The notes under the pieces were generated by a model. That model saw only the letters and a list, made by a program, of their open reading frames with translations, was not told where the DNA came from and did not search any database. Shown piece after piece: positions 6,099-26,233 of a stretch of DNA of 26,233 bases. Location: the IMG/VR virus record IMGVR_UViG_3300034073_002329, positions 1 through 26,233 of that record; one strand, given 5' to 3'. The DNA comes from a virus. Both the position numbers and the translations under genes were made by a program. How positions within the stretch are numbered: position 1 is the first letter of the stretch; every line of letters begins with the position of its first letter.

Positions 6099-6872
6099 AT
6101 GGCTTTTCAATTCCTTCTAAACGGCACCCCTCTGGATGCTGGCGACGCTGCCACGCTCATCAAAACCGTGAAGAACAGCCGGTCCGCTCCGACCATTGAG
6201 CTGAGCGAAGTCTTCGATATTTCGAAGCTCGATAGCAAAGCATTGTTCGAGATGGCGGTCGATATGGGATCGCAGGAGCTGGCATCGCTGGCTTGGAAGA
6301 TCTCCGTCGGCAAGCCAACGAAAAAGATGAAAGCCGGTCGCCCGGCTGCCCAGAAAACAGTCTGGGAAGGTCCGGAGGCTCTGATTGAGGAGCTGCATAA
6401 GTCCCAGTCCTACTGGGCTGTGGGAGCAGCGATGATCCTCGATTACTTCTCCGAACTCAACGACTGGAGCACTCTTCGGAAGATCGCCATCTTCTACGTA
6501 AACGATATTGATGCGTCAGACAACAAAGTCCCGCACGATTCCATTCTGTACAAAGGATTTACGTGGTCCGAAGAGCTGGATATGTTTGATCCGTTGGTGC
6601 TCCGGGCAGGGATTGATCGTAAAGATACGTTCCACGTCAGCCCGATGTACCTGTCCCTTCGTGAAGGGATGAACTGGTGCATGAAGAACGGGCTCGTAGA
6701 GCAGAAGTCCCAAGTGTCGTACGGATCGTTGGATGGGGCGAGCGGCAACACGATGCAGCGCGTGTACTACAACCTCCGACTGACGAAGCGGGGGCAAGAC
6801 GTCAGTCTCCTTTGGGCAGACTCGAACGAGTACATCCTTAACTTCTTCGCCTCTCGCCGCCAGGGTTCCTGA
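6099..6872 (+). CDS. Hypothetical protein with possible winged-helix C-terminus
   Basis: A 257-residue protein starting at ATG 6099; a TTG two codons upstream is less likely. Residues 78-85 contain KAGRPA, reminiscent of a minor-groove AT-hook core, followed by a helical region and a C-terminal part (about 190-250) whose helix-helix-strand look (NWCMKNGLVEQKS, then VYYNLRLTKRG) could be a winged helix. This suggests DNA binding but is not proof. It has its own gap upstream and a terminator 30 bases downstream, so it may be a separate transcription unit. Codon use resembles that of the SSB-like gene, suggesting high expression. Family not recognised. Confidence 0.65.
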   Translation: MAFQFLLNGTPLDAGDAATLIKTVKNSRSAPTIELSEVFDISKLDSKALFEMAVDMGSQELASLAWKISVGKPTKKMKAGRPAAQKTVWEGPEALIEELHKSQSYWAVGAAMILDYFSELNDWSTLRKIAIFYVNDIDASDNKVPHDSILYKGFTWSEELDMFDPLVLRAGIDRKDTFHVSPMYLSLREGMNWCMKNGLVEQKSQVSYGSLDGASGNTMQRVYYNLRLTKRGQDVSLLWADSNEYILNFFASRRQGS

Positions 6873-6901
6873 GCTGGTTCTCGATAGCCCGAGTAGACTG
6901 C

Positions 6902-6926
6902 AAGCCTCGCTTCGGCGGGGCTTTTC
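6902..6926 (+). terminator. Rho-independent terminator
   Basis: AAGCCTCGC (6902-6910), loop TTCG, GCGGGGCTT (6915-6923) form a nine-pair stem with one G-T pair, followed by TTTTC. It sits 30 bases after the 6872 stop and just before the polymerase gene. Confidence 0.85.
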
Positions 6927-6949
6927 ATTTCTCTATCATCATTTTCCTC

Positions 6950-8845
6950 ATGCAGGTTCGTTACATCCAAACAGCCGAACAGTTCCAGGAAGTTCTGCCT
7001 GAATTGAAGCAGATTCCGAAAATGTGTTTGGACTGCGAAACAACGGGCCTGCAAGCAACAATCGCAAAGCTTCGCTTACTGCAGCTCTGTGATGCCACGC
7101 CGGATATTGAGGATCGTACGGTTTATGTTCTAGATCTCTTTAAGTTCGAACCAAACGAAGAGCTCAAGGAACTTATAGAGTCCCGCGCCATGCTCCTGGC
7201 GCACAACATGAACTTCGACTTTCAGTTCCTCCTGTCCATCGGGATTGATTTCAAAAACAAGATCTTCGACACGTACGTCGCAGAGCGCGTTCTTCGTTCT
7301 GGCTTTAAGGAGAAACGGGTCAGCCCTAAGTCTCAGACTACGTACTTTACAGATGTCAGCTGCAGCCTGAAAGCTGTGGCAGAGCGCAGGCTCGAAATCG
7401 AAATCAGCAAGGAGCAGCAGAAATCAGACTGGGGCGCCGAAGAACTCGACATCGAACAGATCGAGTACGCAGCAGGAGACGTTGACATCCTTCCACGCAT
7501 CGCAGCATCCCAGCTGGCCGAACTGAAAGAGGAGAACCTTCTATCTGTTTACGGGCTCGAATCTAAGTGCATCCGCCCCGTGGCAATGATGAGCTACAAG
7601 GGATTCTGTGTCGACTTGGCTAAGTTAAACAAGCTCAAAGCATCTATCGAAGCAGAACTGGAACAGAAAACCGAACAGTTCGTTAAATCGCTGGACGATA
7701 GACTTCCAGCAGGTCTGAAACTTCCTCGGGGAATTGACGGAAAGGTCGCAGTCGGTAAGAGACCGAAAAAGGATTTTAATCCTGGATCCACGACGCAAGT
7801 TATTTCCGCCTTTACTGCTTGCGATATCGAGCTGCCTAGAGACGCCAAGACGGAGAAGAAAACCCTCAATCAAATTGCTCTCGCAGAGTTCGATAGCGAC
7901 GACCCCACGCTGAACCTTTATAGGCAGCGTGTAAAAGTAGAAACAAAACTGGAGCACATCACCAAGCTGCTGGAAAATGTAAATCCAGTGACGCTGCGGA
8001 TTCACTCTGGCTACAACCAGACAGGGGCAAACTCAGGACGCTTCACGAGCAACGGCGCCCCGAAAACAGCTAAAAGAGAAAAGAAAACAGTTTTTGCAGT
8101 CAATATTCAGCAAGTCCCTAGAGGTAAAGAATTCAGGGAGTGCTTCGTCGCTGAGCCGGGATTCAAACTTGTGATCTGCGACTGGGCTCAGATCGAGCTG
8201 CGGCTCGGTGCGGAGCTGATCAACATCCCTCAGATGCGGCAGGCGTTTAAAGATGACATCGATTTACACACAATGACTGCTAGTCTTATCTACAAAAAGG
8301 ACTTACACGAAGTGTCTAAAGATGAACGACAAGATGGAAAGACTCTGAACTTCGCCTTGCAATATGGAATGGGTTATCGTAAGTACAAAACATATGCGGC
8401 ACAGAGTGGTCGCAATTTAAGCTTGTCGGAAGCTAAAGTGGCGCACGCTGCTTTCCACGCTGCGTATCCGCGTTTGAGAGAGTGGCACAGGGAAAGAGCT
8501 TCCCTCGTTGAGGACGGCTGGGCTTACGTCAGAACAGCTTGTGGTCGGAGACGCTTATTAAGTTATGACGATGCGACAATGATGTGCTCCGCAAACACAT
8601 TAATCCAAGGAAGTGGCGCAGATATCTTAAAAATAGCTATAGCGGAAATAGGCCCTCATTTAAACGATAGTGTAAGAATGGTTGCGTGTATCCACGATGA
8701 AATCGTTTTAGAAGTATCGGAAGAAAAAGCAGAAGAATATAAAATAATGCTAGAGAACATAATGAAAAATGCAGCTTGTACAGTGCTTAAAAACGTTCCT
8801 GCAGCAGCGGATGCTAATGTAGGCACTTCGTGGGCGGACAAATGA
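6950..8845 (+). CDS. polA: Family-A DNA polymerase with 3'-5' exonuclease
   Basis: A 631-residue replicative polymerase. The proofreading domain has exo I D28-x-E30, exo II around N86-D90 (AHNMNFD) and exo III Y173-x3-D177. The polymerase domain has motif A D411-WAQIELR, motif B R460-x3-K464-x3-F468-x3-YG and motif C H582-D583-E584. All catalytic residues are present. The position equal to E. coli F762 is Phe (F468), which in the family predicts discrimination against dideoxynucleotides, unlike T7 polymerase with Tyr. There is no 5'-nuclease domain, as is normal for phage enzymes of this size. The last third of the gene, after about 8540, switches to AT-rich codons including several ATA. The stop overlaps the HNH gene start (ATGA at 8842). 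Confidence 0.97.
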   Translation: MQVRYIQTAEQFQEVLPELKQIPKMCLDCETTGLQATIAKLRLLQLCDATPDIEDRTVYVLDLFKFEPNEELKELIESRAMLLAHNMNFDFQFLLSIGIDFKNKIFDTYVAERVLRSGFKEKRVSPKSQTTYFTDVSCSLKAVAERRLEIEISKEQQKSDWGAEELDIEQIEYAAGDVDILPRIAASQLAELKEENLLSVYGLESKCIRPVAMMSYKGFCVDLAKLNKLKASIEAELEQKTEQFVKSLDDRLPAGLKLPRGIDGKVAVGKRPKKDFNPGSTTQVISAFTACDIELPRDAKTEKKTLNQIALAEFDSDDPTLNLYRQRVKVETKLEHITKLLENVNPVTLRIHSGYNQTGANSGRFTSNGAPKTAKREKKTVFAVNIQQVPRGKEFRECFVAEPGFKLVICDWAQIELRLGAELINIPQMRQAFKDDIDLHTMTASLIYKKDLHEVSKDERQDGKTLNFALQYGMGYRKYKTYAAQSGRNLSLSEAKVAHAAFHAAYPRLREWHRERASLVEDGWAYVRTACGRRRLLSYDDATMMCSANTLIQGSGADILKIAIAEIGPHLNDSVRMVACIHDEIVLEVSEEKAEEYKIMLENIMKNAACTVLKNVPAAADANVGTSWADK

Positions 8846-9423
8846 CAAGAGCTCCTAAGAAATTCGAAGAATGGGTCTACTCTGATCCAACAAGCAAAAC
8901 GGGTCTTCGCTGGCTGCCTGGTCAAAAGTGGAGGGAAGCTCACACAGAAGCAGGGGGTATAAACCCTAGAACAGGATACGCCGTCCTAACAATTAAAGAA
9001 AACGGGAAAGATGTAAGATTTACGTGTCACAGGATTGTATATTATTTAGAAAAAGGAGTGTGGCCGGACAAAAATAGAATCAATCATAAAAATAGAATTC
9101 GTTCGGATAATTCTATATCTAATCTAGAGTATATAGAGGGATCCGAAAAGGAAGTAGAATCCATACAGAAAATCGATAGAAGGAATAAAGGGGACCTACC
9201 TAGGTATGTCTCTTGGAATAACCGGGATAAACGTTATCAGGGGTCTATAAGATTAGATGGTAAAAGAAAATCACTAGGTTACTCTAAGTGTATTAATACA
9301 TTACACAAAAAAGCTATAGACATAATAAACACAGAGTACAACAGAAATTTCGAATACACCTTCGTCCAAAGCTGTAATTTTTGTGTACGATGTCCCCACA
9401 CGGATTCTGATCAGGAGGAGTAA
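8842..9423 (+). CDS. HNH homing-type endonuclease with AP2 domain
   Basis: ATG 8842 overlaps the polymerase stop (ATGA) and is preferred over GTG 8830. The 193-residue protein has an HNH core: H63 in CHRIVYYL, then INHKNRIRSDNSISNLEYI with H82 and N94. An AP2-like DNA-binding domain at about 121-160 follows (YVSWNNRDKRYQGSIRLDGK). This pairing is typical of free-standing phage homing endonucleases. The tail has C-x2-C-x2-C at 178-184, a possible metal site. Codons are strongly AT-rich (AGA, ATA), unlike most of the polymerase gene, so it was probably acquired. Placement directly behind polymerase motif C fits homing into a conserved gene. Confidence 0.88.
   Translation: MTRAPKKFEEWVYSDPTSKTGLRWLPGQKWREAHTEAGGINPRTGYAVLTIKENGKDVRFTCHRIVYYLEKGVWPDKNRINHKNRIRSDNSISNLEYIEGSEKEVESIQKIDRRNKGDLPRYVSWNNRDKRYQGSIRLDGKRKSLGYSKCINTLHKKAIDIINTEYNRNFEYTFVQSCNFCVRCPHTDSDQEE
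9413..9420 (+). promoter_or_regulatory. Strong Shine-Dalgarno AGGAGGAG
   Basis: A near-perfect ribosome binding site six bases before ATG 9426, formed from the last codons of the HNH gene. It stands out because most genes in this window have weak or no Shine-Dalgarno sequence. Confidence 0.75.
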
Positions 9424-9425
9424 TT

Positions 9426-9920
9426 ATGCTACAACAGGTTACTAAGGATCTAAATAAAGAATTGGTAGTAATAAAAACATCTCTAGGATACATCTCCTTA
9501 GTAGATGGTGACGATTGTTTTTACGTTTGTCCGGAAATTTTTGAATCCCCCTTGAAGGCAAGTAATAATGCAAGAGCTCTAAAAAAGAAGCACAACATTA
9601 AAAAAAAGGTAAAACTGGACACACCTCTAGCGACAAAACGAAAACCAACTAAGATAGCGAAAGTAAATTCCCTCTACACCGAGGAGGAGATGTCCTCGCG
9701 CCCCCATTTAAGATTCCGAGAGGTCTGGGTGATCCTGAGCCCACGCGGGGAGTTTGTCGAAAAAGCAATCGAGAACGCGACTCTCGTTCAATATCAGACG
9801 GACAGAGCGAAAGCTGAGATATTTAAAAGCTACGAGGATGCTCTGTTTAAGTTAAAGACACTCGATATGGTAGTTAAGAAAGGTCACTACCTGCGTAGAT
9901 TTTTCGAAGAGATGAAGTAA
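9426..9920 (+). CDS. Hypothetical protein (164 aa), basic
   Basis: Begins three bases after the HNH stop with a strong ribosome binding site. A soluble, lysine-rich protein with a basic middle (about 50-80: KKKHNIKKKVK, KRKPTK). The DNA is AT-rich up to about 9690, then base use becomes more like the older genes (CCCACGCGGG lies inside at 9740). This suggests a composition boundary inside the gene. No family recognised. The basic stretch could bind nucleic acid. Confidence 0.6.
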   Translation: MLQQVTKDLNKELVVIKTSLGYISLVDGDDCFYVCPEIFESPLKASNNARALKKKHNIKKKVKLDTPLATKRKPTKIAKVNSLYTEEEMSSRPHLRFREVWVILSPRGEFVEKAIENATLVQYQTDRAKAEIFKSYEDALFKLKTLDMVVKKGHYLRRFFEEMK

Positions 9921-9970
9921 CAAGATAGCGATCAAGTAACAGGCACGCGATTTAACGCTCGAAAACTTGC

Positions 9971-9980
9971 TACGATCGTA
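9971..9980 (+). promoter_or_regulatory. Palindrome TACGATCGTA with possible -10
   Basis: A perfect 10-bp palindrome whose first half TACGAT, preceded by TTGC, could be an extended -10 box, 29 bases before the GTG start at 10000. The 80-base gap has no gene. No firm -35 is seen. Confidence 0.27.
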
Positions 9981-9999
9981 AGAGATAGAGTTTAGTCGC

Positions 10000-11028
10000 G
10001 TGGCTGTTCGGCGCCGTCCTTCCTACGGATTTTCGTTAGCAGGTACCTCTTTTGGTGTGAGCCCGGAAGCGGGGGTCTCGAAAAGCACGCTGGCACAGTT
10101 GTTTCCCGAGCTGGACTTTGGTTCCACAGCAGCTGCCGCAAAACCAGAAGAAGTAGAAAAACCAGACGAAACTACCCCAGCAACACCTAACACCGGTGTA
10201 GCTGCGATCGGACCTGAAGAAACCGTGCCTGGATCCGAACTCCAGAAATACAACCTCGAAGGGAAACTTACATACGGAGCACCTTTTAATATCCAGTTCG
10301 GTCCTACTGGACCTCAGGGACGAGGTAGTCGTCTCGGGTATTCCGGAAGTGCTCCGACTCAAACTCCTGCTGGGATGACGACCCCGACACAGGTGGGGGC
10401 TTCCTCTCAATCCTCGGTTGCGCTTCCGCAATATGAAATGCCGGAGTTTGATTACTCACCCTTCGAAAGTCTGCTCGAACAAGGTCGCGGTATCCTGAGC
10501 AGCATTCAAGAGGCAGCTAAGGGTATGACAGCTGCTCAACAAATGGAGCCCGGCGCCGCTGAACCAACGAGCACCGAAGCCCCGACCGCGCCCACGGCTG
10601 GTCCCGCTGCAGCCTCAACGGTTCCGGTCCGGCTCCAAGTTAAACAAGCTGCTGAAGCTGCCGGCGGCGCAACTAATCTTGGTAAAACTGGCGTCCAAGG
10701 TCTGCTGTCCCAGGGCGTCGATCCCACCCAAATCGAGAAACAAGCTCGCGCTGCAGGTGTGTCACTCGGCAGCAAAGCACAGAGTGCTGTCGACCGTGCA
10801 CAAGTCCAGGCAATTGCGCAGGCTCCCACAAATCTCAAAACCCAAGTTCAGCAAGTCGCGAAAGCCACGGATGCCGGAAGGATCACACAAGCCGGTGCTC
10901 AGGCACTGATTGCTAGCGGTGCAAGCGCAGCGCGTATTGAAAGGGTTGCCGAAAAACAAGGCATCGATATCGGCAAGCAAGCTCAGCAACTCATTAACAA
11001 AGCGCAAGATAAAAAAGGTAAGAAGTGA
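10000..11028 (+). CDS. Ala/Gln/Pro-rich protein with tandem C-terminal repeat
   Basis: GTG start; 342 residues of low complexity. Residues 1-205 are rich in Pro, Gly, Thr, Ser and Ala and look disordered. The C-terminus (about 207-335) holds two imperfect copies of a unit of about 55 residues, each starting QVKQ/QVQQ-A and running through a GVQGLLSQGVDP / GAQALIASGASA core and an IE-x7-G(V/I)-(S/D)-(L/I)-G stretch to a helical end (SAVDRAQ / QLINKAQ). The shape, disorder plus a helical repeat, fits a scaffold, adaptor or virion-associated protein. I recognise no family. The stop overlaps the next GTG (GTGA at 11025). Confidence 0.7.
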   Translation: MAVRRRPSYGFSLAGTSFGVSPEAGVSKSTLAQLFPELDFGSTAAAAKPEEVEKPDETTPATPNTGVAAIGPEETVPGSELQKYNLEGKLTYGAPFNIQFGPTGPQGRGSRLGYSGSAPTQTPAGMTTPTQVGASSQSSVALPQYEMPEFDYSPFESLLEQGRGILSSIQEAAKGMTAAQQMEPGAAEPTSTEAPTAPTAGPAAASTVPVRLQVKQAAEAAGGATNLGKTGVQGLLSQGVDPTQIEKQARAAGVSLGSKAQSAVDRAQVQAIAQAPTNLKTQVQQVAKATDAGRITQAGAQALIASGASAARIERVAEKQGIDIGKQAQQLINKAQDKKGKK

Positions 11029-11558
11029 ATCAGTACTCAATTGAACTTGAACGTAATAACAAAAAGTTAGTCCTCGCCGTCCAATCCAACGACACAGCTC
11101 ATGTCCAGGCACAAGCCGTGGATATCTGTAGAGCTGTAGATGCTACACAATATTCTATAAGCTACGAACAAATCGAAGAATCTGCTTTAGCTAAGTTGTT
11201 CCGCGACTTAGCGTTTAATAACTTCGAGTACACGAAGTGTTTCGAATGGCAGGGTTCCTTCTCAAACAAACAACCTTGTTTTTACGTATTCGGAAAACGA
11301 ATATACGCCCGTTATTCGATTCTTCAATATCTGGACATCCCTAAGGACAACTACTACCCAAAGCCACGCTGCGGCAATCCGCAGTGCATCAACCCGCTGC
11401 ACTTCGATTACAAATCAGCTAAGCACTCCAAACTATCGCCAGGCGACATCGAAATCCTCAAAGCACAACGACGCGAGGGAGCCAGCGTAAACCAGATCGC
11501 CAAAATTTTAAAAGTACACAGAGCAACTATATACAGGCACTTACAACAAGTAGCCTGA
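11025..11558 (+). CDS. HNH-like protein fused to helix-turn-helix
   Basis: GTG 11025 overlaps the previous stop. A 177-residue protein. The middle has F-x-W-x-G (73-77) and C116-GNPQ-C121-INP-LH126, a pattern I associate with phage HNH nucleases of the type with a short Cys-x4-Cys-x4-His metal site. Residues about 137-175 form a clear Hin-type helix-turn-helix (KLSPGDIEILKAQR, GASVNQIAKILKVHRATIYR). Such fusions are free-standing phage endonucleases or DNA-binding relics. The N-terminal 60 residues are unknown. It could also be a transcription regulator with a zinc-binding module. Confidence 0.6.
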   Translation: MNQYSIELERNNKKLVLAVQSNDTAHVQAQAVDICRAVDATQYSISYEQIEESALAKLFRDLAFNNFEYTKCFEWQGSFSNKQPCFYVFGKRIYARYSILQYLDIPKDNYYPKPRCGNPQCINPLHFDYKSAKHSKLSPGDIEILKAQRREGASVNQIAKILKVHRATIYRHLQQVA

Positions 11559-12292: not shown

Positions 12293-13081
12293 ATGTTTAT
12301 CGCTGGTGATTTTTCGGAATCCGAAATCCTCTGCAACATTCCGCCTCATACTCTGCGTATCGATCTTCAAGCTCGCCGCTGGAAGTCCGATGTTGATCCC
12401 GACAACGCAATCGTAGACCGCAACGACAACGGTATTCCCATTGAGTTCATCCTCATTGGATTCACGCCGTACTTTGGAAACCTCGGGATGCGTAACCAGG
12501 AAGAGTTCCTGCGTATAGCGTACATCGGTGTGTCTCCCAACCACAGGTTGCTTCCGCCTCGGTGCATCACGACTTCGATGATCTCTGGCAAGTCCAGCCA
12601 GAAGAATTTCATCGCCTACTTCCAAACCCTGTATAACAACCGCATTAACTGTGCGTCTATTATCACTTCAACTAAGTTCGTGACCCGCTCCTTTAACGAG
12701 CGTGATCCGATGACCGGTGCCGACGGGGCGAAGATCAACTTCAATTGCCTGGACTTCAGCGACCGTCCGGCTCAGAACGACGAAGAGGAAAAGCTCCTCA
12801 AAGACGTGTCCGAGTGGCTGGCTAAAGACGGAACAGGCATGGCGGCAAACGCACTGAAGAGCAGCATCCCTGGTGCTGATCTGATCGAACTGCCTTTGGG
12901 CAGCGATCACGCTGCGCTCAAAGCTGAGTTTGCGTCCACGCGGGGCCAAGCTCCTGAGCGTACGTTTGCTGCATCCGAACCCGAAGCCAAAGCTCTGAAG
13001 TCCGCTGAACCTCCTTCACCGAAAGCGAAGAAGGTAGAGCTAACCGAAGAACAAGCAAAAGCACTCGGAATCGATTTTTGA
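12293..13081 (+). CDS. Hypothetical replication-associated protein, tail GIDF
   Basis: A 262-residue protein 12 bases downstream of the SSB-like gene, thus surely co-transcribed. Residues 1-170 look globular with beta-strand-rich segments; 170-250 is a charged linker rich in Ala, Glu, Lys and Pro; the end is LTEEQAKALGIDF. The last residues echo the neighbour's tail (GSIDFSL), as if both use the same partner-docking peptide. I recognise no family. It could be a second single-strand binding protein or an SSB partner. A terminator follows at 13107. Confidence 0.65.
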   Translation: MFIAGDFSESEILCNIPPHTLRIDLQARRWKSDVDPDNAIVDRNDNGIPIEFILIGFTPYFGNLGMRNQEEFLRIAYIGVSPNHRLLPPRCITTSMISGKSSQKNFIAYFQTLYNNRINCASIITSTKFVTRSFNERDPMTGADGAKINFNCLDFSDRPAQNDEEEKLLKDVSEWLAKDGTGMAANALKSSIPGADLIELPLGSDHAALKAEFASTRGQAPERTFAASEPEAKALKSAEPPSPKAKKVELTEEQAKALGIDF

Positions 13082-13106
13082 GCTAACGTAAAAACGAAGC
13101 CAAGGC

Positions 13107-13133
13107 AGCGGTCTTTCTCGGAAGGCCGCTTTT
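13107..13133 (+). terminator. Rho-independent terminator
   Basis: AGCGGTCTTT (13107-13116), loop CTCG, GAAGGCCGCT (13121-13130) pair over ten bases with two G-T pairs and run into TTTATT. It closes the SSB-like gene pair. The next gene's ATG (13137) lies only a few bases past the hairpin, so any expression of that gene from upstream would be through leak. Confidence 0.75.
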
Positions 13134-13136
13134 ATT

Positions 13137-13526
13137 ATGTACCTCAACTGCATCTCAACAAAAATAAAGCAAGATGGTGAATGGGTAAGCCTTTTCGTAG
13201 AGGACGTGGGCTACGCGTACAACGTGGGTCTTGCGATTCACAAGTCGAGACGTGCGGCGAACGATTGGTATCGAAACCGCAAGAACAAAAGAGCTCGCTC
13301 AGTTCTTACAAAACAGGGACCTCGCTCACTGGCTGCCTTACGTACAGCACTAGACATATTAAAGATTCACTTAGAAGTTACGACCGCCAAACCCCTCATG
13401 ATTATGCCCAGTACAAAACGAACCGCTGCCTTAGCTAAGTACCTCAAACGACTTGGGTTTAAGGAGTATCCACAGGGTGAGCAACCTCTCTACTTGCTAA
13501 TAACTCGTCAAACGCCGGGAGAATAA
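13137..13526 (+). CDS. Hypothetical protein, weak acyltransferase resemblance
   Basis: A 129-residue protein starting four bases after a terminator hairpin and its short T-run. The second half (KPLMIMPSTKRTAALAKYLKRLGF, then PLYLLITR) resembles the end of GNAT-type acetyltransferases, where a helix carrying RxxLxKYLxRLGF is followed by a last strand. However, the acetyl-CoA pyrophosphate loop (Q/RxxGxG/A) is not visible. Treat as a remote hint only. Its last 68 bases overlap the opposing nblA-like gene, tail to tail. Confidence 0.5.
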   Translation: MYLNCISTKIKQDGEWVSLFVEDVGYAYNVGLAIHKSRRAANDWYRNRKNKRARSVLTKQGPRSLAALRTALDILKIHLEVTTAKPLMIMPSTKRTAALAKYLKRLGFKEYPQGEQPLYLLITRQTPGE

Positions 13527-13701
13527 CTTTGTTCCTCGCACACCACGAGGCGAGGCTGGAAAACAACCGTTTGTTGATCAGAGACTGCTTATGCACCATC
13601 TCAAAGATCTGGAGAAGCCCGTCCTTATCTAACTTCTTCGCATCCATCATCACTCGATTATGTAAGAACTCCTGTTCTTGGCTCATCCAATCGAGTTGCA
13701 T
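13459..13701 (-). CDS. nblA: NblA-like phycobilisome degradation protein
   Basis: An 80-residue minus-strand protein. Residues 7-50 match the NblA pattern without gaps as I recall it from Synechococcus elongatus: E-Q-x-F at 9-12, a central helix with L-x-x-(I/L)-F, V-x-(K/R)-Q and an (I/L)-F-x-x-(M/L) at the end. NblA is a small two-helix dimer that tags phycobilisomes for breakdown by Clp protease; freshwater cyanophages carry it to remodel the host antenna. Here a tail of about 28 residues (CARNKVILPAFDELL...) extends past the usual length of about 60. It is antisense to the surrounding replication genes and its 3' end overlaps the 13137 gene. The start is ATG 13701; an internal ATG at residue 6 is also possible. 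Confidence 0.65.
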   Translation of the reverse strand: MQLDWMSQEQEFLHNRVMMDAKKLDKDGLLQIFEMVHKQSLINKRLFSSLASWCARNKVILPAFDELLASREVAHPVDTP

Positions 13702-13790
13702 ACCGATAGAGCGGCTCCCTCAACGTTAATCACAAAAGCGGTCAGCGCTCAAGCTGTTTGCTAAGCTCCACACATTCTTCCGTTTTACGC

Positions 13791-14345
13791 ATGGCATCGT
13801 TTTACACAATCCCTGAAGGCGTGACGCACCAACTGATTAAGCACAGTTACATCCAAGGCTCGATATTAGTCCCATATGATCCAAACGATACTCTGAGCAA
13901 TCAGCTGCGAGCGCACAATTTTACAGTTACGACCAATAAGGACACTGATAACTTGGTTAACCCGATCTGGTGGACAACCATGCGGGACAAACAGTACGAC
14001 TGGGTTATCGCGAACACAACAGGCATTAACGATTACAGTGAGTACATACTCGACTACGGAATACAAGTAGCTAAGGAAGGCATAGCTGTACTCGATAGGC
14101 TCTCATTCATCGAACCAGTTACAAAACGCAGGAACTTCCTGCTGTCGAACAAACTGTCGAACATGATCGTCTTATCGCCACGGCCTCGTTTCAGCTCGGT
14201 CAGTGCATCTCGTGATTCGGTCACAAGTTGCTGGTTTGTCTTCCAGCGTCCCGATAAGTGGATGGATGGCACACACGTGTCATACGCTGTAAATTGGGAC
14301 GCAGCTCAAACGCTCCCGCCCCTCGATGACATCGCAATCAAGTAA
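13791..14345 (+). CDS. Methyltransferase-fold protein with degenerate active site
   Basis: ATG 13791 (184 residues) is preferred over TTG 13758. The layout follows phage adenine-methyltransferase-like proteins: a motif I position (ILVPYDPN, 25-32), a motif IV position (YDWVIANTTG, 69-78) and the characteristic C-terminal half with LDRLSFIEP (101-109), R-x-F-L, IVLSPRPRF (126-134) and DSVTSCWFVFQRP (142-154). In active members motif I is E/D-x-x-x-G-x-G and motif IV is NPPY/F. Here the glycines are missing and motif IV reads NTTG. I infer a catalytically dead or repurposed protein. It is transcribed divergently from the nblA-like gene and overlaps the next gene by 20 bases. Confidence 0.55.
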   Translation: MASFYTIPEGVTHQLIKHSYIQGSILVPYDPNDTLSNQLRAHNFTVTTNKDTDNLVNPIWWTTMRDKQYDWVIANTTGINDYSEYILDYGIQVAKEGIAVLDRLSFIEPVTKRRNFLLSNKLSNMIVLSPRPRFSSVSASRDSVTSCWFVFQRPDKWMDGTHVSYAVNWDAAQTLPPLDDIAIK

Positions 14346-14682
14346 ACTTGAGAAGTTCCAGCGTGCTGTGTGCGATAGGTTAGATAGGACAAATGAAAAA
14401 CTCGATCGGGTTATTGCCCTACTGGTATCAGCACAGCTCCTCGAAGAGTGCGTGTCCCCCGAGGGAGAGATCCGCGATGCCCAACAGTGCGCGGAGATTG
14501 TTGTTGAAAGTTATTCAGCAGGTCTTTGCCTCACCGAAGAGTTGACGAGCCGCACTCGGGATATCGAGTATCAAAAGTCCGAATTCTTTGTCGACGATGA
14601 CGAAGATGAGGAAGAAGAGGATGATGATAGTGATGAAGATGATGGTCCTGATGAACCTCGACTTTTCTCGATGGCGTTCTGA
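14326..14682 (+). CDS. Small protein with extreme acidic tail
   Basis: A 118-residue protein whose ATG lies 20 bases inside the previous gene. Residues 8-40 form a charged helix (KFQRAVCDRLDRTNEKLDRVIALL), probably a coiled coil. Residues about 87-110 are almost entirely Asp and Glu, followed by the tip PRLFSMAF. Acidic tails of this sort occur in SSB-like proteins, histone-like chaperones and DNA mimics. Neighbouring genes are a pseudo-methyltransferase and a recombination-type nuclease. Function unknown. Confidence 0.65.
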   Translation: MTSQSSKLEKFQRAVCDRLDRTNEKLDRVIALLVSAQLLEECVSPEGEIRDAQQCAEIVVESYSAGLCLTEELTSRTRDIEYQKSEFFVDDDEDEEEEDDDSDEDDGPDEPRLFSMAF

Positions 14683-21938: not shown

Positions 21939-23174
21939 TTAAATAGAGGCCCGGATGTACCAGCCTGATGTGGGCGATTCTACGAGCCAACGCGGCCCGA
22001 GGTTCTTTTTAGAGTACTTCAGTTTCGCGCCCTTGGTGCTCACATAAGTACCGTTAATAAGATCAAGGTCACCAAAAGGATCGTTTACATACACGCTCTT
22101 ATTGTCGGCTGTGCGTCCGATAATCACGAGCCAGTGACCCCCTCCAGTCGGGTTGCTGACCGAACCCTTGTGAAGAATACCGATGGGAACAGGGATCCCT
22201 CGTTCCAGAAGGTCGTCGATCTCATCCCACGAGCCGTTTTGTTTAAACGACGCAGCTAACCCATAGTCCTGCAGTGCTTCAAGCTGAGAAGTAGGGCTGG
22301 TTGTATCGCCATACTTGAAGACGGTGTTGATATACTGATCGTCAGATGTAATACTGTTGGGTTTTAAATACTTCAACAGCATCGCACACGAGCTAGAAAA
22401 GCAGGTGCGCATGGGGTCGCGATGATTATCTCGCTGACTGTAGTACGGTACGTTTAAAATAATATCTTTAGGCGTAACAGGTGCAGTCTCGTTAGAGATA
22501 GGATCGTTGATAATTTTAAAGTGATCGGGGAATAACCACCAGTCACGGTCCGGCTGAGCGGTCAGCTTGACCTTGTAGTGGACTTCACCGGGAAGCATCG
22601 AGATCTCATCCCATTCGTGGGCGGATCCCTTCGGCACGAACAACTTCTCCTCAGCAGCGAGGTCAGCGCTCTGCAGAGGACGGCGCTTTAACCACGTGTC
22701 CTGTTTGGCGAGGATGGAGTGGCCCAAGAGAGGATGAGGCGCCTTCGACAAAAATAGCGCCTTCTCAGCGTTTCGCCGTTTTGTTAAGCCTTCCAACACT
22801 TTGTCGCCCGCCTTGTTCCAACGCAAGAACTGCGATGCAACGACATTGCGATCAGCGTTATCGTTCAGGAGCCTTAAAAGCGTGGAGGTTTTGAAGGCAC
22901 CTAAACCAACGTTAAACGCAAATGAGACTAATGCGTCAAATTCAGACTGAGTTAAAGAAACGCGTACGTTAGCCGCAACACCAGACGCGAACCGTCCGAC
23001 ATCCTGAGCAAGGATGTCATCTGCTTGCTTCTGAGTGATGGTGAGACCATCGTGGACATTCGGACCTGTGTGACCGTAGCCTATTGTCCAAATGCCCACG
23101 GCGTCTTGATACGCCTTCAGCTTGCAGCCCTCGAATCTCTTAATGAGATCGAGCCCAGCCTGGGAGAGTTTCAT
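21939..23174 (-). CDS. Modular endolysin: GH24 lysozyme plus C39-like peptidase
   Basis: A 411-residue lytic enzyme with two catalytic domains. Residues 1-143 are a T4-type lysozyme: E15, D24 and T30 in RFEG, YQDAVG and IWTIGYGHT match T4 E11, D20 and T26. Residues about 154-221 form an SH3-like linker (DTWLKRRPLQSADL ... WWLFPDHFKI), of a kind I know from cyanobacterial wall proteins. Residues about 237-411 are a C39-like papain-fold peptidase: Q247 in YYSQRDN, C258, H347 in GGGHWLV and D365 in VYVNDPFG. It would cut both glycan and peptide bonds. No signal peptide is visible, so release depends on a holin; the best candidate is the 62-residue protein at 24304. It overlaps the gene upstream by four bases. 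Confidence 0.92.
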   Translation of the reverse strand: MKLSQAGLDLIKRFEGCKLKAYQDAVGIWTIGYGHTGPNVHDGLTITQKQADDILAQDVGRFASGVAANVRVSLTQSEFDALVSFAFNVGLGAFKTSTLLRLLNDNADRNVVASQFLRWNKAGDKVLEGLTKRRNAEKALFLSKAPHPLLGHSILAKQDTWLKRRPLQSADLAAEEKLFVPKGSAHEWDEISMLPGEVHYKVKLTAQPDRDWWLFPDHFKIINDPISNETAPVTPKDIILNVPYYSQRDNHRDPMRTCFSSSCAMLLKYLKPNSITSDDQYINTVFKYGDTTSPTSQLEALQDYGLAASFKQNGSWDEIDDLLERGIPVPIGILHKGSVSNPTGGGHWLVIIGRTADNKSVYVNDPFGDLDLINGTYVSTKGAKLKYSKKNLGPRWLVESPTSGWYIRASI

Positions 23175-23700: not shown

Positions 23701-23964
23701 GTGGAAGCTTTAGTTGCTGCGGTGGGCGTTTTCGCCGCTCTGGTTACATGGAGTCACGAACAACGTCAGCGCGTAGTCAACGACAGATTTGAGTCGATTA
23801 AGACTCGTATTACGACGGCAGAAACACAGTTGAAGGAACTGCCAGAAAAGTACGTTCTAAAGTCAGATTTAAATGCAGAACTAGATGATATTCGGGTATG
23901 GTTGAGGTCAATTAACGACAAATTAGATCGTTTAATTATGGGTAAAGTAAGTGAAAAACTCTAA
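23701..23964 (+). CDS. Small membrane protein with coiled coil (lysis-related?)
   Basis: GTG start with a good Shine-Dalgarno; 87 residues. A hydrophobic N-terminal stretch at about 3-17 (ALVAAVGVFAALVTW) is a likely membrane anchor. Residues about 25-85 are a coiled coil ending ELDDIRVWLRSINDKLDRLI. This layout is common in phage lysis cassettes (spanin-like or holin-associated proteins), and a holin-like gene follows two genes later. No lipoprotein box is present. The stop lies 14 bases inside the next gene, so the two are coupled. Confidence 0.65.
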   Translation: MEALVAAVGVFAALVTWSHEQRQRVVNDRFESIKTRITTAETQLKELPEKYVLKSDLNAELDDIRVWLRSINDKLDRLIMGKVSEKL

Positions 23965-24265
23965 CTACAACATTTGGTTTGCGTTATGTTATGAGCTTTT
24001 AATTAAACTGGGTGAACACTACAAAAGTTTAAAGAACAATTACTGGGTTAAGCTAGCTCTCCGTTACTGCCACGAGGATTGGGTCCTCTGGAAAGTCGAA
24101 AATACCCTGCGATCTGTTGATCGAGATATCGAAAAGATTGTTGAAGAGTGGGATAAACAGGAAAAGCCTAAGTACGAATTAATTGAGCATGAACCCGACG
24201 GATCGAAGGCTCAAGAGTTGCTTGGTGGTGCGATGGAAATTAAATCAACGTGGCGGCGTGATTAA
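23951..24265 (+). CDS. Hypothetical protein (104 aa), Trp/Tyr-rich
   Basis: GTG 23951 overlaps the preceding gene by 14 bases. The N-terminal 45 residues are aromatic and moderately hydrophobic (NIWFALCYELLIKL, NYWVKLALRY) and may sit at a membrane surface; the rest is charged and helical (LRSVDRDIEKIVEEWDKQE). The position between two membrane proteins suggests a role in lysis or entry. Family unknown. Confidence 0.6.
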   Translation: MKNSNYNIWFALCYELLIKLGEHYKSLKNNYWVKLALRYCHEDWVLWKVENTLRSVDRDIEKIVEEWDKQEKPKYELIEHEPDGSKAQELLGGAMEIKSTWRRD

Positions 24266-24276
24266 CTAAGTAGTTT

Positions 24277-24282
24277 TATAAT
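24277..24282 (+). promoter_or_regulatory. TATAAT -10 box before holin-like gene
   Basis: A consensus hexamer TATAAT starting 12 bases after the previous stop and 27 bases before ATG 24304. There is no clear -35, but the position suits a separate promoter for the holin-like gene. Confidence 0.5.
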
Positions 24283-24303
24283 GTAGGTAACCGCCGGAAT
24301 ACC

Positions 24304-24492
24304 ATGACTGCCGCTATCGCTTTCCTTGCCGCCCACTGGGTGGATATCGTCGCTATCGCTGCCGCAGCTCACGCTTTAGCACTGGTTATCGTAAACACTA
24401 CTCCTACGCCTAAAGATGATGAACTGTACGGTAAAGTTTATAAATTTATCGAAGTCATCGCAGGTATCGTGACCAAGATCGCTAAGAAGTGA
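24304..24492 (+). CDS. Holin-like small membrane protein (62 aa)
   Basis: ATG 24304 has its own -10 box. An N-terminal hydrophobic helix at about 2-30 (AIAFLAAHWVDIVAIAAAAHALALVIV) spans the membrane; NTTPTPKDDELYGKVYKFIEVIAGIVTKIAKK is a polar loop and a second amphipathic helix with a basic tip. I associate this layout with small holin-like proteins in marine and freshwater phages. It would permeabilise the membrane so the endolysin can reach the wall. A strong terminator begins 14 bases after the stop. The last 11 bases overlap an opposing HNH gene. Confidence 0.6.
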   Translation: MTAAIAFLAAHWVDIVAIAAAAHALALVIVNTTPTPKDDELYGKVYKFIEVIAGIVTKIAKK

Positions 24493-24880
24493 TTTCTTCC
24501 TCATCGCCTGCTGGGAGCTGTAATGGCTCCTCGCAGGCTTTTTTGTACGCCACGGCGGACTCGGATTGATTTGGATCCGTCGCTATCCATTCCAGAATTT
24601 TAAGTTCCCTGTCGGACGTCCAAAACGTCTGCGACCTAAACCAAAGCATATGATCCGTATCTGACTTCTGAAGATTGCAATCAGCACAAGCTGCTACTAA
24701 GTTATTCCTAATTGTCTTACCTCCTCGGGCCTTAGGTACGATGTGATCCAATGTGGACGGATTTTCGCGTCCACAATAAGCACAACCGTCCCAGGAATCT
24801 AAGATATCCCGACGGAACCGCTTCCTCGCAGTTCTCCTCTGTAAGCACTGGAGGGAGAACAGGAGATCGTTTTCTGACAT
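24482..24880 (-). CDS. HNH endonuclease (McrA-like)
   Basis: ATG 24880 (MSENDLLFSLQC) is preferred; GTG 24889 would add three residues. The 132-residue protein has a canonical HNH zinc-finger nuclease core: C-x2-C in CAYCG, TLDHIVPKARGG with the catalytic Asp-His, NNL and C-x2-C in CADCN followed by LQKSD. All key residues are present, so it could be active. It faces the rightward lysis and tail genes, and its last codons are shared with the strong plus-strand terminator at 24506. It looks like a free-standing homing-type insertion between the lysis cassette and the tail fibre gene. Confidence 0.9.
   Translation of the reverse strand: MSENDLLFSLQCLQRRTARKRFRRDILDSWDGCAYCGRENPSTLDHIVPKARGGKTIRNNLVAACADCNLQKSDTDHMLWFRSQTFWTSDRELKILEWIATDPNQSESAVAYKKACEEPLQLPAGDEEEITS
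24506..24544 (+). terminator. Strong rho-independent terminator inside opposing HNH gene
   Basis: GCCTGC (24506-24511) pairs with GCAGGC (24533-24538), and GGAGC (24514-24518) with GCTCC (24526-24530), followed by six T. It ends the holin-like unit. The same bases encode part of the C-terminus of the HNH protein on the other strand. Confidence 0.88.
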
Positions 24881-25010
24881 CCGGCTCACTCGAAGAGTGG
24901 CTTTAGGTCATTTTAGAAAATTTAAATTACTAAATGATTAAAACACTCTGTAGTCTAAAGAACATTTAAACCAGTTAAACTTTAGTTGTACCTAACGGGG
25001 AAAATGAACC
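24881..25010 (+). promoter_or_regulatory. AT-rich gap with promoter-like elements before tail fibre
   Basis: This 130-base stretch holds no gene. It has a CACTC/GAGTG hairpin (24887-24891, 24895-24899), a run of AT-rich DNA (24911-24985) and the TAAACTTTAG motif at 24976-24985 that also lies before the 23701 gene. GGGGAA at 24997-25002 serves as Shine-Dalgarno for GTG 25011. It is the likely promoter region of the tail fibre gene. Confidence 0.4.
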
Positions 25011-26233
25011 GTGGCTGAAGTTAATTTTCTGGTTAAAAAAGGGCTGACTGTGCCCAAAGGCAGCGAATCCACGCCTGCGATTATTTTCGATGCGTCCGAC
25101 CCGAATACTGGTATTTACTCCCCTGCCGCAGACCAACTAGCCATCTCGACTAATGGCACTGGGCGGTTGTTTGTTGATAGCAGTGGCCGAGTTGGCGTGG
25201 GAACCAGTACTCCTGGCGGTTTGCTTCACTTAAAGAGTCCTTCTGCAACTGCTGCGTATATATACATCTCAGGGAATGACGCCAGCCCAGAAACTTTTTT
25301 TATTGGCCAAGACACGTCTGGGTTGACGCGTCTGTTTCATAATGGTGCATATCCAATTACATTCTGGACAAACGGTACTGAACGCGTCCGACTCACGGGC
25401 GACGGCAAATTAGGTCTGGGGACTAGTAGCCCTAGCGTTAGATTTGAAGCATCGGACACTGCTCCTCCTAACGGCGTTGTCGCTACCTTTAGAAATTCGA
25501 CTGCTGCTGGAGGGACATACGCCGGCATTTCACTGAACAACAGCGGCGGCACTACTCAGTCGGTAAACCTGCTCGCCAATAGAGTAACGGCGTCACCTGG
25601 AGCTGATTTTGTTGTTCAGGTTTCAGATGGTAGTACAGGCGCATTGCAAGAGCGCCTCCGTATTACTGAAACTGGCCGAGTAGGGATTGGTACTACGAGT
25701 CCTTGGAGCCAGTTTAGCGTCAACATGGACGCTAACAATATGCGTTTTGGCACAGCTCTTGACGCAGGAGGCAATCCATCTATTGATCTTTATCGTTGGC
25801 AAGGCACTAGCACTAACTATAAATCTGCAAGAATATCTTGCCTTACTGACGGCAGCATTTCAATCCTTAACGCTACAGCAAACTCAACTGATTTTTCTGC
25901 TCAGAGTTTCACCGAACGCGCCCGCATCACATCAAGTGGGCAGCTTTTGGTTGGCACGTCTACTGCGCGTAGTGCTGTAAGCGGCGGATCACCACTCGTC
26001 CAGATTGAGGGAGGCAGTGGAACGTCGGGAAACCTTTTGTCCGCTGTGCGTAACAGCAATGATGTTTACTCAGCTTCAATTATTCTTGGTAAGACTAGGG
26101 GAACAGTCGGTACAACTACTATTGTCCAAAATAATGACTGGCTTGGCTATATCGCATTCGATGGGGCTGATGGCGGCAATCTCAAGGAAGGAGCTTCAAT
26201 TAAAGCCGAGGTAGACGGCACCCCCGGCCCTAA
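25011..26233 (+). CDS. Tail fibre protein, partial (runs off right edge)
   Basis: GTG 25011 opens a frame that remains free of stops for 407 codons to the window end. The N-terminus contains DPNTGIYSPAADQLAISTNGT (about 30-50), then the typical phage fibre repeat with an ER-x-R-(I/L) strand and a G-x-(V/L)-G-(V/I/L)-GT-(S/T)-x-P turn: copies at 59-68, 124-141, 214-231 and a degenerate copy at 302-319. The visible end reads ASIKAEVDGTPGP. Such fibres bind the host surface. Many end in a self-cleaving S74 chaperone domain, which would lie beyond the window. An out-of-frame ATG at 25004 ends after four codons, so GTG is the start. Confidence 0.9.
   Translation, partial: MAEVNFLVKKGLTVPKGSESTPAIIFDASDPNTGIYSPAADQLAISTNGTGRLFVDSSGRVGVGTSTPGGLLHLKSPSATAAYIYISGNDASPETFFIGQDTSGLTRLFHNGAYPITFWTNGTERVRLTGDGKLGLGTSSPSVRFEASDTAPPNGVVATFRNSTAAGGTYAGISLNNSGGTTQSVNLLANRVTASPGADFVVQVSDGSTGALQERLRITETGRVGIGTTSPWSQFSVNMDANNMRFGTALDAGGNPSIDLYRWQGTSTNYKSARISCLTDGSISILNATANSTDFSAQSFTERARITSSGQLLVGTSTARSAVSGGSPLVQIEGGSGTSGNLLSAVRNSNDVYSASIILGKTRGTVGTTTIVQNNDWLGYIAFDGADGGNLKEGASIKAEVDGTPGP

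Follow-up and report, generated by a model that had tools for sequence, protein, structure and literature searches.

The 26,233-base virus record IMGVR_UViG_3300034073_002329, which derives from an uncultured phage and is called the window throughout, carries on one strand three closely packed genes: a family A DNA polymerase gene (6950-8845; open and full length; Pfam DNA_pol_A_exo1, 1.3e-22, and DNA_pol_A, 9.1e-63), a gene for an HNH_3-type protein, and a gene beginning at 9426 (the 9426 gene), whose product matched nothing in Pfam or PHROG and is left without an assigned function. A divergent tract of about 1.3 kb encloses the HNH gene and takes in about 485 bp of the polymerase gene, roughly its last quarter, as well as about 225 bp of the 9426 gene (Table 1). 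As far as comparison of sequences can establish it, there is hardly any doubt that a tract containing the HNH gene was replaced here, and we consider it probable, though well short of certain, that the tract was brought in by HNH-associated gene conversion, that is, by intronless homing.

Table 1. Features at the polymerase locus, with positions counted from the first base of the window
Feature	Position	Strand	Evidence or remark
Family A DNA polymerase gene, native part, codons 1-470	6950..8360	+	3'-5' exonuclease and first polymerase motifs
Polymerase 3' part, replaced, codons ~471-631 and stop	8361..8845	+	Identity drop against relatives
HNH gene, 193 codons	8842..9423	+	PF13392 HNH_3, 1.1e-9
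9426 gene, 5' part, replaced	9426..9650	+	Amino acid identity 41-47% over columns 1-85
9426 gene, 3' part, native	9651..9920	+	90-96% identical to ten relatives in the 60-nt bin starting at 9680
Entire tract, read as imported, ~1.3 kb	8361..9650	.	Two-breakpoint fit and position-by-position reading

The site occupied by the HNH gene is empty in the near relatives examined. A search with the polymerase returned 210 stretches, of which the best 80 loci reach down to 66% identity, and a search with its C-terminal part added 69 locus numbers, some of them on the same contigs; leaving aside the locus of the window itself, 149 loci were searched with the HNH protein and gave no match at E 1e-3. Wherever at least 300 nt follow the 3' end of the polymerase gene, a homologue of the 9426 gene lies downstream (71 of 71 distinct ends), and in all 13 near HNH-less loci, some identical in sequence, the polymerase stop overlaps the start of that gene as ATGA. 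It is the HNH gene that starts at this ATGA in the window (8842), the ATG being a likelier start than the GTG at 8830 given in the list of open reading frames; the HNH stop occupies 9421-9423, and the ATG of the 9426 gene follows two bases on, with GGAGGAG just before it. The HNH gene thus sits exactly in the overlap at which HNH-less loci begin their next gene. Furthermore, it is free-standing, with its own ATG and neither intron nor intein around it. A group I intron in the polymerase gene was considered and rejected: no Rfam match turned up at 6500-11500 up to E 1, and hence no sign of an intron.

The tract has sharp ends. Six near relatives are mostly 82-95% identical to the window where aligned, and six records together cover 23,868 of its bases. 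In 60-nt bins, the nearest six loci are 81-98% identical to it over 8000-8359; over the rest of the polymerase gene the bins fall to 53-78% (48-78% with ten near relatives), and identity to the six is back at 91-96% in the bin from 9680. Read position by position within 8280-8430, the window first departs from all six compared records at 8361; within 9600-9730 it does so for the last two times at 9645 and 9662. A two-breakpoint fit returned 8410-9648, with support ranges of 8379-8410 and 9647-9653, a mismatch of 0.334 inside against 0.019 outside, and a gain in log likelihood (lnL) of 223.5, where permutations (n=50, coarser) gained at most 9.7. The fit counts a site as mismatched only if the window's base is absent from all of seven relatives, and for this reason its left border is shifted inward from the directly read 8361. 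Both borders fall in protein stretches conserved across relatives, which is where an exchange between divergent genomes should end, in places of likeness, although an assembly error might end there too. At polymerase residue 471 (8360-8362) the window has Q, within FALQYG, and L stands there in 13 of 13 near loci as well as in L052, L068 and L072.

The polymerase itself is, on the evidence of its sequence, a chimera, since both synonymous sites and nucleotide trees separate residues 1-463 from residues 472-631. Over residues 1-463 it is 97-98% identical in amino acids to the nearest loci (L002-L010); across 12 near relatives the range is 0.79-0.98 for this part and 0.80-0.82 for residues 472-631. 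Of the four-fold sites shared with L002, 166 of 194 agree in the first part and 18 of 54 in the second (Fisher 2.8e-13). The same comparison between relatives gave 119/186 and 49/74 for L002-L005 (p 0.78) and 133/187 and 64/76 for L002-L006 (p 0.028, in the opposite direction), and as these controls show no drop, the region is not merely variable. In the nucleotide trees (56 rows) the window joins seven near relatives at 100% for residues 1-463, and a clade of the 12 relatives excluding it is rejected there (lnL 58 lower; approximately unbiased test, p-AU 0.0019); for residues 472-631 those same 12 form a clade without the window at 99%, and the window joins L082, an unreliable join in which two long branches meet. 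In the amino acid trees (64 rows) the window's end branch measures 0.012 in the first part and 0.58 in the second, where the 12 relatives again group without it (95%). The replaced part includes the HDE motif, which we take to be motif C. In the 9426 gene, amino acid identity to the 12 relatives is 0.41-0.47 over columns 1-85 and 0.77-0.95 over columns 86-166. One group of relatives, L030, L031 and L037 among them, matches this gene only from about residue 72 onward, and its N-terminal part looks like a separate module.

Codon use shifts within the tract as well. An amino-acid-corrected scan of G+C at third codon positions (GC3) over 7800 degenerate codons, from 35 genes chosen from the list of open reading frames, found the lowest segment of the window at 8532-9667 (369 codons; GC3 at synonymous sites, GC3s, 0.309 against 0.523 overall; z -8.54), and permutations (n=200, coarser grid of lengths) reached a minimum z of -5.09. 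The second-lowest segment, 23855-26149, has a GC3s of 0.42 and a z of -5.23, so that the real background is slightly wider than that of the permutations; 8532-9667 stands clearly apart from it. Low GC3 extends from 8532 on through all three genes. A preliminary description of this DNA, made from the sequence alone, had seen AT-rich codons in the polymerase gene from about 8540 and followed them until about 9690, and the scan places both ends within about 25 bp of these values. It had also pointed correctly to an ATA cluster near 8630 (three within six codons, at 8633, 8639 and 8648) and to upstream polymerase isoleucines that are nearly all ATC or ATT (28 of 29 before 8532, namely 20 ATC and 8 ATT, with one ATA; from 8532 on, five of nine are ATA and four ATC). 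Its start of the import at about 8540 has to be given up, with identity collapsing already at about 8361, some 170 bp before the GC3 step. It had further raised the question of whether phages lacking the HNH gene show the same shift, and the 12 HNH-less relatives compared show a mild dip only: for residues 1-463 their GC3s is 0.55-0.60 (window 0.56), for residues 472-527 it is 0.48-0.63 (0.49), for residues 528-631 it is 0.42-0.52 (0.28), and for the 5' half of the 9426 gene it is 0.42-0.51 (0.30). Because the relatives have this dip too, the GC3 step lies inside the true left border and is best read as a native slope steepened by an AT-richer donor. Such a donor is plausible, given that AT-rich polymerase relatives exist (L048, L022, L017 and L082, with GC3s of 0.21-0.37 in the N-terminal part of the polymerase), although the donor itself is not among the loci found.

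The protein enclosed by the tract belongs to HNH_3, its PF13392 match lying above the curated cut-off. We aligned it with 37 chosen relatives, namely 34 of 39 prepared frames (five were dropped to shorten the list) and three from G001 and G002; HNH_3 was found in 38 of the 38 rows and AP2 in 31, the match of the window protein itself to PF00847 (AP2) not reaching 0.01. In a profile search the nearest solved structures were a plant AP2 factor (5.9e-11) and, as the best nuclease, I-HmuI (8.3e-8), neither of which was found with the window protein searched alone. A predicted model of the protein (predicted local distance difference test, pLDDT, mean 86.4) had I-HmuI as its top fold match (E 9.1e-3, probability 1.00; no match at 0.001), and against the AP2 domain 1gcc it gave a probability of 0.93 but an E of 0.39.

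In the reading that we favour, this phage would have recombined homologously with a much more distant, AT-richer relative and gained about 1.3 kb (~8361-9650), the flanks and the HNH gene being together of donor origin. The donor's HNH enzyme would have cut or nicked the HNH-less allele in or near the 3' end of the polymerase gene; the break would then have widened, and repair would have copied the donor allele with both flanks, stopping in stretches conserved between donor and recipient. The HNH gene would have taken over the ATGA stop-start overlap that formerly joined the polymerase gene to the next gene, and key active-site residues of its product seem to have been lost, either afterwards or while the gene was still in the donor. 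A replacement caused by the HNH enzyme is our best inference, because replacing a tract together with its flanks is what intronless homing does: there, the distance between cut site and gene is hundreds to thousands of bases, and the flanks are co-converted, as described in PMC2988022. Phage HNH enzymes are, moreover, known from introns of DNA polymerase genes (PMC3428280) and from the neighbourhood of such genes (PMC10448857).

Several observations weigh against this reading. The catalytic residues of I-HmuI are given as D74, H75 and N96 in PMC12724721, and the equivalents in the window protein are N81, H82 and K103. H82 is kept (37 of 37 relatives have H), but N81 stands where 37 of 37 have D, as do 80 of 80 HNH relatives (the best 80 of at least 154), and K103 where 33 of 37 have N; in addition, E96 replaces an R and E106 an N that are each present in 37 of 37, with the limit that both places of N (K103 and E106) may be misaligned, as the window has a 2-residue insertion just after E106. 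An N at the place of I-HmuI D74 occurs in other HNH_3 proteins, and for that reason loss of activity is likely but not certain; the frame is open, and its product is probably a decayed, catalytically impaired homing endonuclease. Furthermore, neither a donor nor a close copy of the HNH gene turned up in the searched collections. The protein was unmatched in viral_contigs and genome_contigs, with searches that reach close relatives only, and a 33-base exact pattern from its gene found nothing in viral_contigs; in the phages collection 99 records match the protein, of which not one reaches 60% identity or spans 80% of its length, and only 2 of the best 80 of at least 154 HNH relatives lie within 3 kb of a PolA-like match. 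Among 50 whole records searched, 4, G001 and G002 included, have distant HNH matches (24-27% identity) at other places. When the 3' part of the polymerase gene (8384-8842) was searched alone, nothing above 82% amino acid identity appeared among the best 80 of 114 loci.

The trees, too, speak with reserve. For residues 472-631, a nucleotide tree constrained to join the window to its seven near relatives is worse by 18.6 log units (p-AU 0.088), and one that joins it to all twelve is worse by 3.9 (p-AU 0.37); with amino acids its placement with the near relatives is not rejected (p 0.54; 0.65 for the larger set), and the constrained trees score slightly better than the free search. It is accordingly synonymous sites, branch lengths and borders that carry the discordance, and the trees give the donor no reliable place. 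The separate trees that the preliminary description had suggested for the two polymerase parts are discordant with nucleotides, and a second part grouped with near relatives is not rejected. Together with the mildness of the dip in HNH-less relatives, this means that the two conditions it had named for its own refutation turned out largely to its advantage. Its larger proposal, homing with co-conversion, has been borne out as to a foreign, sharp-ended block around the HNH gene which includes the 3' end of the polymerase gene; an HNH-driven origin is probable at best, the protein lacking conserved catalytic residues and the searches having found no donor.

The main rival, which we regard as rather unlikely yet serious, is ordinary homeologous recombination of co-infecting phages, with the HNH gene travelling as a non-cutting passenger. 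The group is indeed mosaic: most of the gene at 10000-11028 is nearer G005 and G006 than G001-G003, opposite to most of the window, and this swap (10000-10900) occurs without HNH. HNH_3 genes are moreover common in the group (25 of 41 records), so that some chance meeting with swaps is to be expected. The damaged look of the HNH copy would suit a passenger, as would the slot between the polymerase and 9426 genes in L052, L068 and L072, which is filled by other open frames, none of them matching the window HNH protein. What such recombination accounts for less readily is the position of the HNH gene within foreign DNA that has replaced its neighbours on either side, and that two further HNH genes, in G002, likewise sit at borders of exchange or divergence. 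In favour of homing it also counts that a gene of 582 nt placed at random would have a probability of about 0.03, computed post hoc, of falling entirely within the tract.

The first of these is an HNH_3 gene that separates the G002 homologues of two window genes, 14326 and 14722; at this site the window aligns with G001, G004 and G005 and has no gene-sized gap. To its left, over ~12801-14600 (1.8 kb), G002 (loci L157/L158) agrees with G005 at 97-100% identity. The window and G001 agree with one another at 98-100% over this stretch, and with G002 at 77-93%. G005, which matches this tract of G002, lacks HNH at that place, a further point against HNH-driven exchange, and the G002 gene therefore marks a border of exchange and is not a simple donor copy. 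The second HNH gene of G002 directly follows the 3' end of its lysozyme gene (window 21939-22131). The lysozyme ends of the window and G002 are 67% identical, against 82% further into the gene and 95.7% on the other side; the recombinant may be either the window or G002. The lysozyme gene of the window (21939-23174) has an extra C39-like peptidase domain (Phage_lysozyme 7.3e-48, Peptidase_C39_2 5e-12).

A scan along the whole window, compared with six records, gives a similar mixture. Of 1190 slices of 100 nt with sufficient alignment, 42 are less than 80% identical to every aligning record, and they lie in four places: 8381-8880, where 18 of them start (at 8381-8781) adjoining the HNH gene; 10041-10300 together with 10521 and 10881-10901, a group that has no HNH; 22101-22320, which is the lysozyme 3' end adjoining the HNH gene in G002; and 24701-24900, inside a window HNH gene of another type (24482-24889). 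With the two extra cases in G002, the link between HNH genes and recombination becomes open to a statistical test.

We consider it improbable that the tract is a chimera of metagenome assembly, in which the contig would have switched, at conserved stretches, to the allele of another population and then returned. The position of both borders would fit such jumps, and no second witness of the tract appeared in viral_contigs or in the searches with the C-terminal part of the polymerase; two jumps within 1.3 kb would be needed, however, and the polymerase, HNH and 9426 genes are all open, tightly spaced and low in GC3 from 8532. An origin without any import, whether by a local change in codon use, by rapid evolution on the spot or as a native property of the gene, has next to no probability in our view: the mild dip of the near relatives is in its favour, but at the left border it takes only tens of bases for synonymous identity to collapse, in the window only and not among relatives, and a native codon shift is ruled out by this collapse together with the mildness of that dip.

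Beyond the single locus, HNH genes behind the polymerase might act as shufflers of polymerase domains, an idea that we put forward tentatively and would not yet bet on. Repair at the 3' end of the polymerase gene would swap the part after FALxYG between lineages that otherwise differ there by about 20% in amino acids, the endonuclease would then decay, and a chimeric polymerase with a new gene in the operon overlap would remain. Whatever becomes of this idea, the window offers a well-resolved case from an uncultured phage in which a gene of homing-endonuclease type is linked to the partial replacement of an essential enzyme, with borders known to tens of bases and an exact empty site, and to which G002 adds two HNH genes at borders of exchange or divergence. 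It also serves as a warning that a single phage polymerase gene can combine two histories, which a tree built from it will then blend.

How does this locus compare with known systems? Collaborative homing beside a DNA polymerase gene reportedly involves T3 gp5.3 / F-TslI (said to have been described by Bonocora and Shub in 2009), with the intron insertion site in the polymerase gene as target. T3 is mentioned in the sense of collaborative homing in PMC10448857. Close in arrangement is the Seg-type intronless homing treated in PMC2988022, in which, as in the window, a free-standing gene of endonuclease type is absent from relatives, and in which donor sequence extends beyond the gene, as it probably does here; the Seg enzymes are nevertheless of the GIY-YIG family with activity demonstrated in that account, whereas the window protein is HNH_3 and has probably lost its activity. 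Phage HNH enzymes are also encoded in introns of DNA polymerase genes (I-HmuI, I-HmuII, I-BasI, I-TslI and I-PfoP3I, as listed in PMC3428280), and share with the window the HNH family and the association with a phage DNA polymerase; the I-HmuI group lies inside group I introns in the polymerase gene according to that source, in contrast to the window HNH gene, which is free-standing after the polymerase stop. The HNH-AP2 or IPA-HNH proteins of ICP1-like phages (PMC10448857) combine HNH with a C-terminal AP2-type domain, as the window protein may do, but they are described there as too divergent for the HNH_3 profile, which the window protein matches at 1.1e-9, so that it falls outside IPA-HNH as so defined. 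In that survey 29% of 431 IPA-HNH genes lie near DNA polymerase genes, and nuclease genes are placed at borders of exchange (PMC10448857). Lactococcal Skunavirus, finally, has variable free-standing I-HmuI-like HNH genes at set sites between core genes, 97 of 121 of them in the replication module and 56 of 268 incomplete (PMC12724721). These resemble the window gene in being free-standing at set sites and differ in belonging to another phage group, in which marker exclusion was measured, as reported in PMC12724721. Set beside these systems, the tract is best read as a clear natural case of gene conversion of an already known kind, and not as a new system.

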